Source of the DNA: JAUWCW01 sp030609125 [NCBI: Candidatus Rokuibacteriota bacterium]
GTDB taxonomy: Bacteria; JAUVQV01
Assembly (NCBI GenBank): GCA_030609125.1
Contig: JAUWCW010000119.1
Span: 1-6,403 of the forward strand
Direction of reading: 5' to 3'
DNA: 6,403 nucleotides
Each line of letters opens with the position of its first letter. The first letter of the stretch is position 1. This document shows, piece by piece, positions 3,056 to 6,113 of this stretch. The notes under the pieces were generated by a model. It ran no database searches, was not told where the DNA came from, and saw nothing but the letters and a program-made list of their open reading frames with translations. The translations under genes were made by a program, and so were the position numbers.

Positions 3056-4027
3056 TCAAACCCTGAGCGGGGCGATCTCTTCCTCGCTGATCGGCGCGGC
3101 TTCGACCTCGCCGGATCTGCCCCGGCCCTCCAGGGAGACTCTTACGGGCTCCCCGGCGGCCTTGCAGTAGCGGGCACAGAGAGAGGCCGCGAGCTGCACG
3201 TCCGCTTCAGACGGCTCTCCCGCAAGGAGGGCCACCGGGCCTGGAATCTCCACGGTGCGAAAGATCACATCCTTCTCGCCTTTCAGTTCCATGAGGCGGC
3301 AGTTTTCATCGTGGTTCCGGCCCACAATGACCTTGACGGCCGGGTGAAGCCGGAAATGCCGTCCGATCCTGAGCATCTCGAGAGCAGGGATTCCTTCCTC
3401 GGGTCCGTTCTCGAAGAGATCGCGGAGACGGGCCGAAAAGGACTGGTCGGTGAGGAGGCATCCTCCCGCCGGAGAGGGGTAGTCGCGGATGCCGTACTTC
3501 TCCGCCAGGCCCATCTGGGGCTTGCGCGAGCGCCCCTGAATGTCGAGGAGCCGCTGCCGATCGACTTTGCCCCCCTGTTCGGGGATCGTCTCGGCCAGAC
3601 GCAGGGCGGAGAGGGGGCGCAGGATGAGCCCCCGGTAGCCTGAGAGGTTCGCCACGCGATTCAGGGCGGCCCGGGTCTGGGACATGGGCCGCTGGTTCAG
3701 CACCTCGCCGGTGAAGATGAAGTCCCAGCCTTCGCGCTCCATGATCTTTCCCGCTTCCGTCAGCATCAGGGTATGGCAGTCGATGCACGGGTTCATGTTT
3801 GCCCCGTAGCCGCTGGCCGGATTCTTCACCACTTCCAGATGAATCCCGGTGATGTCCCGGATCAGGAGGCGAAAGCCTATCTTCCCGGCGGCCTTTTCGG
3901 CGTTGGCGGAGCCGAAAAAGGGAGTTGTGAACGAAATGCCGACGACGTCGATCCCCTGGTCCATCAGCAGTCTGGCGGCCAGCATGCTGTCGAGCCCCCC
4001 CGACATCAGGCCTATTCCCGTAACCAT
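3056..4027 (-). CDS. PP-loop ATP pyrophosphatase, MnmA/ThiI-like tRNA thiolation-type protein with C-terminal NFACT-R-like domain
   Basis: This 323-aa cytosolic protein begins with the ATP pyrophosphatase P-loop SGGLDS (9-14), as in MnmA and ThiI, which adenylate a tRNA uridine before sulfur insertion. It has a CxxC at Cys81/Cys84 (NPCIDCH) and a further cysteine in AGGCLLTD (Cys190), placed like the catalytic cysteine pair of MnmA-type 2-thiouridylases. Residues about 215-300 (IGRHFRLHPAVKVIVGRNHDEN ... IPGPVALLAG) resemble the NFACT-R-type RNA-binding domain found fused to such PP-loop proteins. It lacks the THUMP domain of true ThiI and the full MnmA architecture, so the exact tRNA position modified is unknown. 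The ATG at 4027 places the P-loop at the normal distance from the N-terminus, but no ribosome site precedes it; an extended -10-like element six bases upstream suggests a leaderless message. It is separated from its neighbours by 101 bp and 364 bp and looks like a single-gene unit. Confidence 0.85.
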   Translation of the reverse strand: MVTGIGLMSGGLDSMLAARLLMDQGIDVVGISFTTPFFGSANAEKAAGKIGFRLLIRDITGIHLEVVKNPASGYGANMNPCIDCHTLMLTEAGKIMEREGWDFIFTGEVLNQRPMSQTRAALNRVANLSGYRGLILRPLSALRLAETIPEQGGKVDRQRLLDIQGRSRKPQMGLAEKYGIRDYPSPAGGCLLTDQSFSARLRDLFENGPEEGIPALEMLRIGRHFRLHPAVKVIVGRNHDENCRLMELKGEKDVIFRTVEIPGPVALLAGEPSEADVQLAASLCARYCKAAGEPVRVSLEGRGRSGEVEAAPISEEEIAPLRV

Positions 4028-4128: not shown

Positions 4129-4767
4129 CTAAGACAATCTCGATGTGCGGAGGCGGGGGATGAAGCGGGGGACTTCGTTCATGTACTGCCTGTACCGGTC
4201 GCCATACAGGGAGAGCAGGCGGCGCTCCTCGATGAGGGCGCCCACCACGAAGTAGATGACGGCGAAGATCCGGACGACCAGCCAGGTGCGTGTGAAAGTC
4301 GGGCTGAGCAGGAAGATGGCTATGGCGCCGGAGTACATGGGGTGGCGAACCATGCCGTAGACACCACGGCGCTGCAGGGGAAGCTCGCGAATCCCCTCGG
4401 CGTCTCCCGACGCGTTCTCGCCTCGAAGATGCCGGCGCACCTGAGTCAGTCCGAGAAACTCTCCGGCTCTGAAGACCCGGAAGCCGGCGGCGGCGAAGAG
4501 AAGGGACGCTCCCTGAAGGATCGTGAGCACGGTTTTCAGCCATGCGGGAAGGGAGAAGATGGTGACATCCGGGACTGTCCACACCGCCGCGGCAACTGCC
4601 GCCGTGGATGCCACGCTCACGAGGGAGTAGGTGAAGCGGTACCAGGTGGCGGCCCATTTCGCCCCCCAGGCTCGCACCGCCCAGCGCTTGCAGGCGCCGG
4701 TGGCGGGCAGAGAGTGAACGATCGCGAATCCGAGCAGCGCGCCGGTCAGCCATACGATCTCTTTCAT
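4129..4767 (-). CDS. ICMT/NnrU-like integral membrane methyltransferase family protein
   Basis: This 212-aa membrane protein has about five hydrophobic segments (roughly 3-23, 43-64, 77-98, 142-157 and 161-179). The C-terminal half has the signature of the isoprenylcysteine/phospholipid methyltransferase fold: VYGMVRHPMYSG (136-147), EERRL (180-184) and YGDRYRQYMNEVPRFIP (188-204). Family members use S-adenosylmethionine at the membrane interface; NnrU, a relative, is linked to nitric oxide/nitrite metabolism. The bacterial substrate cannot be read from sequence. The ATG at 4767 puts the first membrane helix at the N-terminus; a GTG at 4803 with GGAG upstream would add 12 hydrophilic residues and remains possible. 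It ends with three in-frame stop codons in a row (TAG TAA TAG). It is the last gene of the microprotein/membrane cluster, or has its own promoter in the gap in front of it. Confidence 0.85.
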   Translation of the reverse strand: MKEIVWLTGALLGFAIVHSLPATGACKRWAVRAWGAKWAATWYRFTYSLVSVASTAAVAAAVWTVPDVTIFSLPAWLKTVLTILQGASLLFAAAGFRVFRAGEFLGLTQVRRHLRGENASGDAEGIRELPLQRRGVYGMVRHPMYSGAIAIFLLSPTFTRTWLVVRIFAVIYFVVGALIEERRLLSLYGDRYRQYMNEVPRFIPRLRTSRLS

Positions 4768-4819
4768 CTGATCTCGGTACCTCTCCACCGGCGCACTTGA
4801 CACTCCCGGCTCCGAGCAG

Positions 4820-4861: not shown

Positions 4862-5281
4862 CTATCCTCCCCCCCGCCAGGCCATGTGCAGCACGGCGCC
4901 GACGAAAAAGTCCGCCCAGGCGAGGCCGATGTCCGGGAGGGTGGACTTCCAGAGAAGCCAGTCCATGAGCGGCGCCCCGGCGGGTCCGAGCCTGGCGATC
5001 ATGAAGTGGGACATCAGCACCGTTCCGTAGATGACGATCAGCCCGTTCAGGAGGTAGCCGTAGACGGCGGTACGGCGGAAGGCGAAGAGCGCGGTCACCA
5101 CCACCACGTCCAGCAGGGGAAGCAGGGCGGCGGTGACGAACGATACCCGGAAGGTCAGAACGGCGGGGTCCGCCTTGTCCGGGGCCCAGATGGGGTGAAT
5201 CCGCAGGTGCAGCATGAGGCCGGAGAAAGCCATGAGAAAGAGCGCTCCGAGGAGCACCTTTTTGTTGTCCGCGCCCTTCAT
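4862..5281 (-). CDS. Small four-helix membrane protein of unknown function
   Basis: This 139-aa protein is not one I recognise. It has four hydrophobic segments at about 9-26, 44-68, 73-94 and 118-134, with short charged or aromatic loops (HPIWAPDKADP after helix 1, FAFRRTAVYGY between helices 2 and 3). Histidines 25, 29, 92 and 132 sit at or near helix ends, a pattern that could hold heme or metal, but no known heme motif is visible. The ATG at 5281 starts one base after the stop of the 32-aa gene (TGACATG), with little ribosome site of its own, so translation is probably coupled. The close spacing with the two tiny proteins upstream suggests that they work with it, perhaps as accessory subunits. 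Function is unknown; quinone-, heme- or gas-linked redox roles are guesses from the neighbourhood only. Confidence 0.75.
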   Translation of the reverse strand: MKGADNKKVLLGALFLMAFSGLMLHLRIHPIWAPDKADPAVLTFRVSFVTAALLPLLDVVVVTALFAFRRTAVYGYLLNGLIVIYGTVLMSHFMIARLGPAGAPLMDWLLWKSTLPDIGLAWADFFVGAVLHMAWRGGG

Positions 5282-5282
5282 G

Positions 5283-5381
5283 TCAGAACCTGGTCACGCT
5301 GCCGAGCCAGAAAGTCAGCAGAATTGCCGCCACGTGCAGCACCCACCAGCCGGGACGGAACTTCATGAAGTGCTTCAGCAT
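5283..5381 (-). CDS. 32-aa membrane microprotein, second of a tandem paralogous pair
   Basis: This tiny protein begins MLKHFMKFRPGWWVLHVAAI and ends TFWLGSVTRF, with one predicted membrane helix at about 12-29 and a basic N-terminus (probably inside the cell). The ATG at 5381 follows a strong GGGAGGG (5395-5389) at good spacing and lies 4 nt after the stop of the upstream 36-aa gene; its own stop is one base before the next start. It shares KFxP, WWxLHxAAI and a glycine seven residues after the Ile with its neighbour, so the two are paralogs by duplication. I do not recognise a described family. Ribosome site, tight packing and the conserved motif argue for a real gene despite its length. Confidence 0.72.
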   Translation of the reverse strand: MLKHFMKFRPGWWVLHVAAILLTFWLGSVTRF

Positions 5382-5385
5382 GATC

Positions 5386-5496
5386 TCACCCTCCCGTGAG
5401 GATTTGCCCGGCGGCGTAGACGGCCGCGATGGCGGCGGTGTGGAGCAGCCACCAGCGGAAAGTGAGGAAGGGAGCGAATTTTACGACCTCTTTCAT
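5386..5496 (-). CDS. 36-aa membrane microprotein, first of a tandem paralogous pair
   Basis: The 36-aa product begins MKEVVKFAPFLTFRWWLLHT, then AAIAAVYAAGQILTGG. It has a single membrane helix at about 15-33 with a lysine-containing N-terminus. The ATG at 5496 has an excellent AAAGGAGG ribosome site (CCTCC on the plus strand at 5501-5505). A longer reading frame extends upstream to 5646, but that part is low-complexity and lacks a ribosome site, so the short start is chosen. It is the first gene of a tightly packed cluster leading into the 32-aa paralog and the 139-aa membrane protein. Single-helix proteins of this size are often small subunits of membrane enzymes (as CydX is for cytochrome bd), but no such partner is identified here, so the role is unknown. 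Confidence 0.75.
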   Translation of the reverse strand: MKEVVKFAPFLTFRWWLLHTAAIAAVYAAGQILTGG

Positions 5497-5528
5497 GACG
5501 CCTCCTTTGTTCCGGTTGCCCCGGCGTT

Positions 5529-5544: not shown

Positions 5545-5693
5545 TGGACGGCTCGAGGGAAATTCTGCCCCGTCGATGATGAAAATGCAACTCTCTTCCG
5601 GGACCGTCTTGGCGCTCCGGGGGCCGTGGGGTAAGATGACCATCATGTTGCCGCGCTGCAGTGTCAGGATGCTTCGGGAAGGAGGGCGGTAGC

Positions 5694-6113
5694 GTGCCGC
5701 GTTTGCCCGCCTGGCTGGTGGTCCTGGGGGCGGTCCTGTACTTCATTGTCCCCTGGGACTTCGACTTCGTCCCTGTCGCGGGCAGAGTGGACGACCTGAT
5801 CCTCCTCGGCCTTGCCCTCATGTACGCCTGGAAACAGAAAAAGGCGCGTGTCGGAGCGGACCCCGGGCGTGCCGGGGCCGAAGGCGGGCGCACCGGCGAC
5901 GGGGCGGGGGCCGAGGACCCCTACACGGTTCTCGGTGTCGGCAGGGACGCCTCGGAGGAAGAGATCAAGGCGGCCTACCGCGAGCTGCTCGGCAAGTACC
6001 ACCCCGACCGGGTCCAGCACCTGGGCGAGGAGTTCAGGGAGATGGCCTCCCGCAAGGCGGTCTCCCTGAACCGGGCCTACGAGAGGATCAAGGCGGAAAA
6101 GCACTTCTCCTGA
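5694..6113 (+). CDS. DUF1232 membrane segment fused to a C-terminal J domain (DnaJ-like co-chaperone)
   Basis: This 139-aa protein has an N-terminal DUF1232-type segment (about 5-46: [28 protein letters not shown]), with the family's P-x-D ... P-x-x-G-x-x-DD pattern and two hydrophobic stretches. A Gly/Ala-rich linker (about 50-74) leads to a J domain (75-137) with DPYTVLGV at its start and the HPD motif at 103-105 ([11 protein letters not shown]), which stimulates the ATPase of DnaK-type Hsp70. The predicted arrangement is a membrane-tethered J domain facing the cytosol that recruits DnaK to the membrane. The GTG start at 5694 is chosen because AAGGAGGG (5679-5686) lies at ideal spacing; a GTG at 5661 would cut into sequence without a ribosome site. 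It is divergent from the microprotein cluster and 75 bp ahead of a secreted protein. No zinc-finger or C-terminal substrate-binding domain of classical DnaJ is present. Confidence 0.9.

Follow-up and report, generated by a model that had tools for sequence, protein, structure and literature searches.

Two tandem single-helix peptides resembling cytochrome b559 subunits and a linked four-helix protein make up a conserved bacterial membrane system

Cytochrome b559 is a heme protein of the oxygen-evolving photosystem II in plants and cyanobacteria. Its subunits PsbE and PsbF are described as binding a single heme b through two histidines located towards the cytoplasmic side (PMC9986647, PMC9214863), and both superoxide oxidase and superoxide reductase activity have been reported for this cytochrome in work cited in PMC3772215 and PMC9214863. 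According to the account given in PMC3772215, the rubredoxin domain of RubA (RBD1) in oxygenic phototrophs is followed by a C-terminal membrane helix, and, apart from exceptions named there, the genes rubA, ycf48 and psbEFLJ are clustered in the same way in the cyanobacteria sequenced. The superoxide oxidase SOO (CybB) is presented in PMC11869295 as a four-helix membrane protein linked to superoxide, b hemes and quinone. The literature matches listed in our search comprised titles and the beginnings of abstracts, with subscription papers and preprints outside their scope, and no b559 homologue outside oxygenic phototrophs appeared among them.

Organization and conservation of the alpha, beta and 4TM genes

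The stretch of DNA analyzed here, referred to as the window, is an entire contig of 6403 bases belonging to a genome of 2.3 Mb that is 92% complete and whose phylum is represented by 2 genomes in the genome set used. Three genes, alpha, beta and 4TM, follow one another in this order, head to tail, on the minus strand. Alpha (5386..5496) encodes a 36-residue single-helix peptide, MKEVVKFAPFLTFRWWLLHTAAIAAVYAAGQILTGG (5496..5386), with Trp15/Trp16, Gly30 and His19 as a putative axial heme ligand, while beta (5283..5381) encodes a 32-residue single-helix peptide, MLKHFMKFRPGWWVLHVAAILLTFWLGSVTRF (5381..5283), with Trp12/Trp13, Gly27 and His16 in the same putative role. 4TM (4862..5281) encodes a 139-residue four-helix membrane protein, the probable partner of the two peptides. 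A preliminary description of this DNA had called the two short frames membrane microproteins with strong ribosome sites, closely packed on their downstream neighbours. Both frames are real at these coordinates and encode membrane peptides, and the gaps measure 4 nt between alpha and beta and 1 nt between beta and 4TM. Judging from the sequence, the ribosome-binding sites are indeed strong, that of alpha reading AAAGGAGG, with AGGAGG at 5501..5506 (minus strand), and that of beta reading GGGAGGG at 5389..5395 (minus strand), adjoining the alpha stop. The 4TM gene is preceded by a weak ribosome site only.

The remainder of the window contains several other genes. An NnrU/PEMT-like membrane methyltransferase gene (4129-4776, minus; PF07298, E 1.1e-8) is located downstream of 4TM, and a ThiI-like domain fused to an NFACT-R_2 RNA-binding domain is encoded at 3056-4027 (minus). 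On the plus strand, a DUF1232 domain fused to a DnaJ domain is encoded divergently from alpha (5661-6113), and the protein encoded at 67-744 bears a long Lys-Ala-Pro-rich histone-like tail and returned no Pfam match at E<=1.

Of 60 genomes searched, 4 had a relative of the window's 4TM: the window's own genome, the only genome belonging to its order, and two that are distant. A 4TM profile matched 13 of 386 sampled genomes, reduced to 12 once L021, a long unrelated protein, was discounted. A pattern scan of a species-genome collection returned 29 named loci, 21 of which carry titles referring to Nitrospirota/Nitrospirae, its families or Thermodesulfovibrionia; the titles of the remaining 8 refer to Proteobacteria, Deltaproteobacteria, Desantisbacteria or an unclassified bacterium. 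Alpha and then beta lie directly ahead of 4TM in 28 of these 29 loci, a tandem arrangement conserved in related genomes of the kind for which the preliminary description had proposed to look. At the exception, L044, 4TM has no first helix in frame and the peptides are absent from the stretch read. The same set occurs in the window and in six more genomes (G001, G036, G059, G065, G093 and G340). The beta profile A8, built on 32 of 35 betas (without L033, L037 and L046), retrieved 11 of the 386 genomes at E<1e-12, the next score being 3.9e-4, and these are the same 11 genomes that carry 4TM with the peptides. The twelfth 4TM genome, G126, has Trp in place of the 4TM residue His92 and no peptides in the stretch read, which suggests that His92 and the peptides occur together. 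Alpha, beta and 4TM form a membrane system of three parts, and both its existence and its conservation are firm.

Some further occurrences were recorded. The G126 homologue of 4TM, with neither alpha nor beta in the stretch read, lies at 1449-1872 of L018. The complete alpha-beta-4TM set is found at L034 (VEOY01000057.1, MnB_6 Mn-Nitrospirae-1), in a Nitrospirae MAG labelled Mn-Nitrospirae. In the middle of L090 (G330), on the minus strand, a lone peptide with the b559-like pattern and the sequence FLKLGWWAVHAIAISLVFTWG scored E 8.4e-4 against the beta profile; it stands beside a gene judged NUDIX-like by eye, 4TM was not seen in this 3-kb locus, and the peptide perhaps represents a separate one-peptide branch.

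The relationship between the two peptides was then considered. The aligned cores of the window's alpha and beta share 8 identical residues, 3 encoded by the same codon and 5 by synonymous codons, and their ungapped score of 53 was reached by 0 of 5000 shuffles. Profile comparison of alpha against beta with hhalign returned 97.7%, and this value together with the tandem order in the related loci bears out the earlier proposal of tandem paralogues. A recent duplication was rejected because no DNA repeat of at least 12 bases occurs in 5283-5500. Across 35 loci the commonest residues are F-L-R-x-G-W-W-x-x-H-x3-I-x2-V-Y-x2-G for alpha and R-Y-K-P-G-W-W-x-L-H-x3-I-x2-T-x2-L-G for beta. The peptides had been collected with a pattern requiring a pair of aromatics, a His and Gly/Ala at +11, in that order, so that the search itself partly dictates these columns. 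The KFxP element, included in the shared motif by the preliminary description, is a peculiarity of the window. A count over 24 codons around the His gave pN < pS in 594/594 alpha pairs and in 589/594 beta pairs (of 595 pairs, one that had fewer than 3 differences was omitted; the 35-locus set retains the near-identical pair L030/L033). This is the synonymous-site excess suggested earlier as a check and, with synonymous codons at 5 of the 8 shared residues, it agrees with the view that the motif is kept at the protein level. L033 and L044 were left out of A6, and A7 comprises 29 of the 35 alphas (without L023, L033, L037, L047, L048 and L050).

Resemblance of the peptides to cytochrome b559

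The preliminary description recognized no described family. The peptides do resemble cytochrome b559 subunits, though below curated cut-offs. The window's alpha matched Pfam PF00283 (Cytochrom_B559) with E=0.0014 and 18.4 bits, below the cut-off of 30, and NCBIfam TIGR01333 (cyt_b559_beta) with E=0.019 and 14.5 bits, the cut-off of 61.15 bits not being reached. In the PDB it had 55 matches at E<=10, every one a cytochrome b559 subunit, the best with E 0.025. The window's beta gave no Pfam match at E<=1 and a single weak, unrelated match in the PDB. At the profile level, all 9 PDB matches of the beta profile A8 at E<=1 were cytochrome b559 beta (E 0.049-0.86), and the sole match of the alpha profile at E<=1 was a potassium channel (E 0.041). 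PF00283 matched 9 of 29 alphas and 0 of 32 betas at E<=1.

Direct comparisons were carried out with PsbE/PsbF references from the three genomes exceeding the PF00283 cut-off. The hhalign values were 90.5% for alpha and 90.4% for beta, while 14 control comparisons, with the four helices of 4TM and with helices that we presume, from their position, to be those of PsbL, PsbJ and RubA, ranged from 0.1 to 8.5%. His-anchored hydrophobic windows were also ranked by ungapped fit against a background of 785 windows taken from six-frame translations of the loci, and all of the 25 best-ranked windows were alphas or betas when PsbF was the reference, as were 24 of 25 when PsbE was. In a permutation null test, using every fourth row, columns were permuted within each side of the His: the observed fit of alpha was reached by 0/2000 permutations against PsbE and 2/2000 against PsbF, and that of beta by 1/2000 against PsbF and 18/2000 against PsbE. 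When the two Trp columns were removed the fit was reached by 0/1000 permutations, except for beta against PsbE (85/1000). Beta thus fits PsbF better than PsbE, and alpha fits both.

Alpha, beta, PsbE and PsbF share the same spacing, consisting of Trp at -4 (Trp/Tyr in b559), His, Ile/Val at +4 and Gly at +11. At position -5, where the Arg of PsbF is taken by us as a heme-propionate contact, alpha has Gly in 25/35 and Arg in 3/35 sequences, the window's own alpha bearing Arg, and beta has Gly in 34/35 and Leu in 1/35. Pro at +5 is found in 0/35 alphas and is absent in at least 33/35 betas, L020 having Pro. A six-frame PF00283 scan at E<=1 recovered alpha in 2 of 11 carrier genomes (G000 and G001) and returned weak matches in 7 of 13 control genomes other than Synechococcus; at E<=0.02, 9 of 386 genomes matched, 3 of them over the cut-off. 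PF00283 alone was rejected as proof because five other genomes with matches below the cut-off score like the window. Alpha and beta fall short of membership in the b559 family, as no curated cut-off is passed, Arg(-5) and Pro(+5) are missing from most of the peptides and the six-frame scans recovered few of the carriers. It is nevertheless likely, on the strength of these sequence comparisons, that they work like b559.

The reaction-centre family PF00124 was absent from all 19 searched genome handles carrying the system, some of them incomplete (G250 and G397 have the locus in common and are probably a single genome, which would make 18), and photosystem membership of alpha and beta was rejected on this ground. 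The same family was present in the control Synechococcus elongatus and in G048, which we take to belong to the Cyanobacteriota as it has reaction-centre genes and psbEF. Among 386 genomes of the phylum of G048 there was one 4TM match (E 0.0014); it contains three internal stops and was ascribed to chance, so that no bridge was found there.

The four-helix protein, rubredoxin fusions and neighbouring genes

Among 34 sequences of 4TM, His25, His29, Asn79 and Met90 are invariant and His92 is nearly so (33/34, G126 having Trp). The AlphaFold2 model shows, at high confidence, four long helices (pLDDT 91.2, pTM 0.82). According to a positive-inside reading, based on the Lys/Arg content of the N-terminus and loop 2, His25, His29 and His92 would lie near the outer face. 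Searches with the protein returned nothing from Pfam at E<=1, from NCBIfam at E<=0.1 or from Foldseek at E<=0.001. The first Foldseek matches above this threshold were designed heme-binding four-helix proteins, a structural likeness that may reflect only a common arrangement; neither superoxide oxidase nor b561 occurred among the best 50 Foldseek matches of each 4TM search. The genomes G036, G059, G065 and G340 encode 4TM and alpha as one fused protein, with alpha at the C-terminal end and beta following.

A second type of fusion concerns rubredoxin. At L046 and L050, and at L019 as judged by eye, alpha is preceded by a rubredoxin domain (CxxCG...CPxCG). Pfam RUBY_RBDX was over its cut-off in the alphas of both L046 and L050, PF00301 (Rubredoxin) reached 22.5 bits in L050, just below the 23-bit cut-off, and all 15 PDB matches of L050 at E<=0.01 were rubredoxins. 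The model of the rubredoxin-alpha fusion was of modest quality (pLDDT 73.1, pTM 0.39), and rubredoxins ranked first in its Foldseek search, in which no match at all reached E<=0.001.

The genes surrounding the system were analyzed at 27 of the 29 loci, leaving out L033, a near-copy of L030, and L044, which lacks the peptides; 140 of the 146 neighbour genes were scanned. Rubrerythrin was the commonest Pfam family (11/140). Ten background genomes contained 58 rubrerythrin matches in about 27 Mb, a density at which the 27 loci, 0.27 Mb in all, would be expected to contain about 0.6; this background is not random, as eight of the ten genomes had been picked for defence genes near the set. Similarity of the flanks to seed proteins placed a superoxide dismutase, superoxide reductase, rubrerythrin or ferritin near 12 of the 27 loci (L022, L024, L028, L030, L031, L035, L037, L038, L046, L047, L048 and L050), loci that are not independent since many of the lineages are related. 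The superoxide reductase of L047 matches Pfam Desulfoferrodox, and those of L035, L046 and L050 are 28-33% identical to it. None of these defence genes was in reach at the other 15 loci or within the 6403-base window.

Proposed function, alternatives and comparison with known systems

The fusion of rubredoxin to alpha and the presence in some genomes of rubrerythrin, superoxide reductase or superoxide dismutase nearby suggest an exchange of electrons between rubredoxin-type proteins and quinone. From the data as a whole we infer a heme, an orientation, a complex, an electron route and a physiological role for alpha, beta and 4TM. We consider it moderately probable that a single heme b is bridged by one His from alpha and one from beta, and that the two peptides and 4TM constitute a small cytochrome of the membrane through which rubredoxin-type proteins and quinone exchange electrons as part of the defence against oxygen. 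Each peptide would be a single-pass helix whose basic N-terminus lies on the cytoplasmic side, and would direct its single His, near the cytoplasmic side, to one heme b held between two parallel helices. The alpha-beta pair would dock on 4TM, whose His25, His29 and His92 near the outer face may hold a second heme or a quinone. The assembly would most likely connect the quinone pool, by electron transfer, with rubredoxin-type proteins of the cytoplasm, and these proteins would in turn feed, or unload, the defence against superoxide and peroxide (superoxide reductase, superoxide dismutase, rubrerythrin). The idea put forward in the preliminary description, that the Trp pair and the His serve a partner or cofactor, fits this scheme, the likely partner being the adjacent 4TM and the likely cofactor, from the sequence comparisons, heme b.

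The peptides might instead be accessory helices that stabilize 4TM, their histidines binding a quinone or a metal or forming hydrogen bonds in the bundle, with no heme bridge. 4TM has invariant histidines of its own and is fused to alpha in four genomes, as such a role would lead one to expect; however, both peptides are alike around the same His, with Trp(-4), Ile/Val(+4) and Gly(+11) as in PsbE/PsbF, the pattern expected of two ligands to one cofactor, and we regard accessory helices as rather unlikely. The size and hydrophobicity of alpha and beta would also suit small regulatory or toxin-like membrane peptides devoid of a cofactor, an improbable identity in view of the fixed linkage to 4TM, the conserved His and the fusions to rubredoxin and to 4TM.

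The alpha and beta polypeptides of the LH1/LH2 antennae are likewise short, tandem and single-helix, with one conserved His, and by analogy the present peptides could bind (bacterio)chlorophyll. At E<=1, however, 29 alphas matched 6 Pfam families and 32 betas matched 2, none of them an antenna model, and no photosynthetic reaction centre was present in the 19 system-bearing genomes searched; antenna polypeptides were rejected on these grounds, and we consider them very improbable. That the two frames are open merely by chance, as their shortness would allow, is refuted by their conservation, namely the tandem pair in 28/29 loci and the predominance of pS over pN in 594/594 and 589/594 pairs, and its probability is negligible.

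Returning to a bridging heme b in an oxygen-defence cytochrome, a further proposal concerns evolution and is put forward tentatively, as we hold it to be somewhat doubtful: cytochrome b559 might not have originated together with photosystem II, but descend from an oxygen-defence cytochrome of non-photosynthetic bacteria that is linked to rubredoxin and composed of alpha, beta and 4TM, or have a common ancestor with it. If this were true, the cyanobacterial rubA-ycf48-psbEFLJ cluster would preserve an older partnership between rubredoxin and b559, which takes here the form of a direct fusion. A b559 look-alike pair in bacteria devoid of a reaction centre would provide a testable outgroup for the origin and function of b559, and the number of known microproteins, often overlooked by gene finders, grows by two proteins of less than 40 residues.

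Among described systems, the superoxide oxidase SOO/CybB (cytochrome b561) resembles 4TM in being a small four-helix membrane protein. It differs in that SOO is one chain with two b hemes, whereas here additional single-helix peptides bear His, and in that 4TM matches no family model, b561-type included, of Pfam (E<=1) or NCBIfam (E<=0.1). RubA/RBD1 shares with the L046 and L050 alphas the combination of a rubredoxin domain and a C-terminal helix, whereas its presumed helix, read by position from L064, has no His motif and gave hhalign values of 0.2-0.36%. Cytochrome b559 differs from alpha and beta in that PsbE has a long tail, alpha stopping soon after its helix, in that the linked partner here is 4TM, and in that Arg at -5 and Pro at +5 are mostly lost in the peptides. 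PsbE/PsbF and alpha/beta are nonetheless alike in consisting of two short single-helix subunits in tandem order with one conserved His each, Trp/Tyr at -4 and Gly at +11. The resemblance is good, though short of family membership, and alpha and beta come closer to cytochrome b559 than anything else found here outside oxygenic phototrophs.
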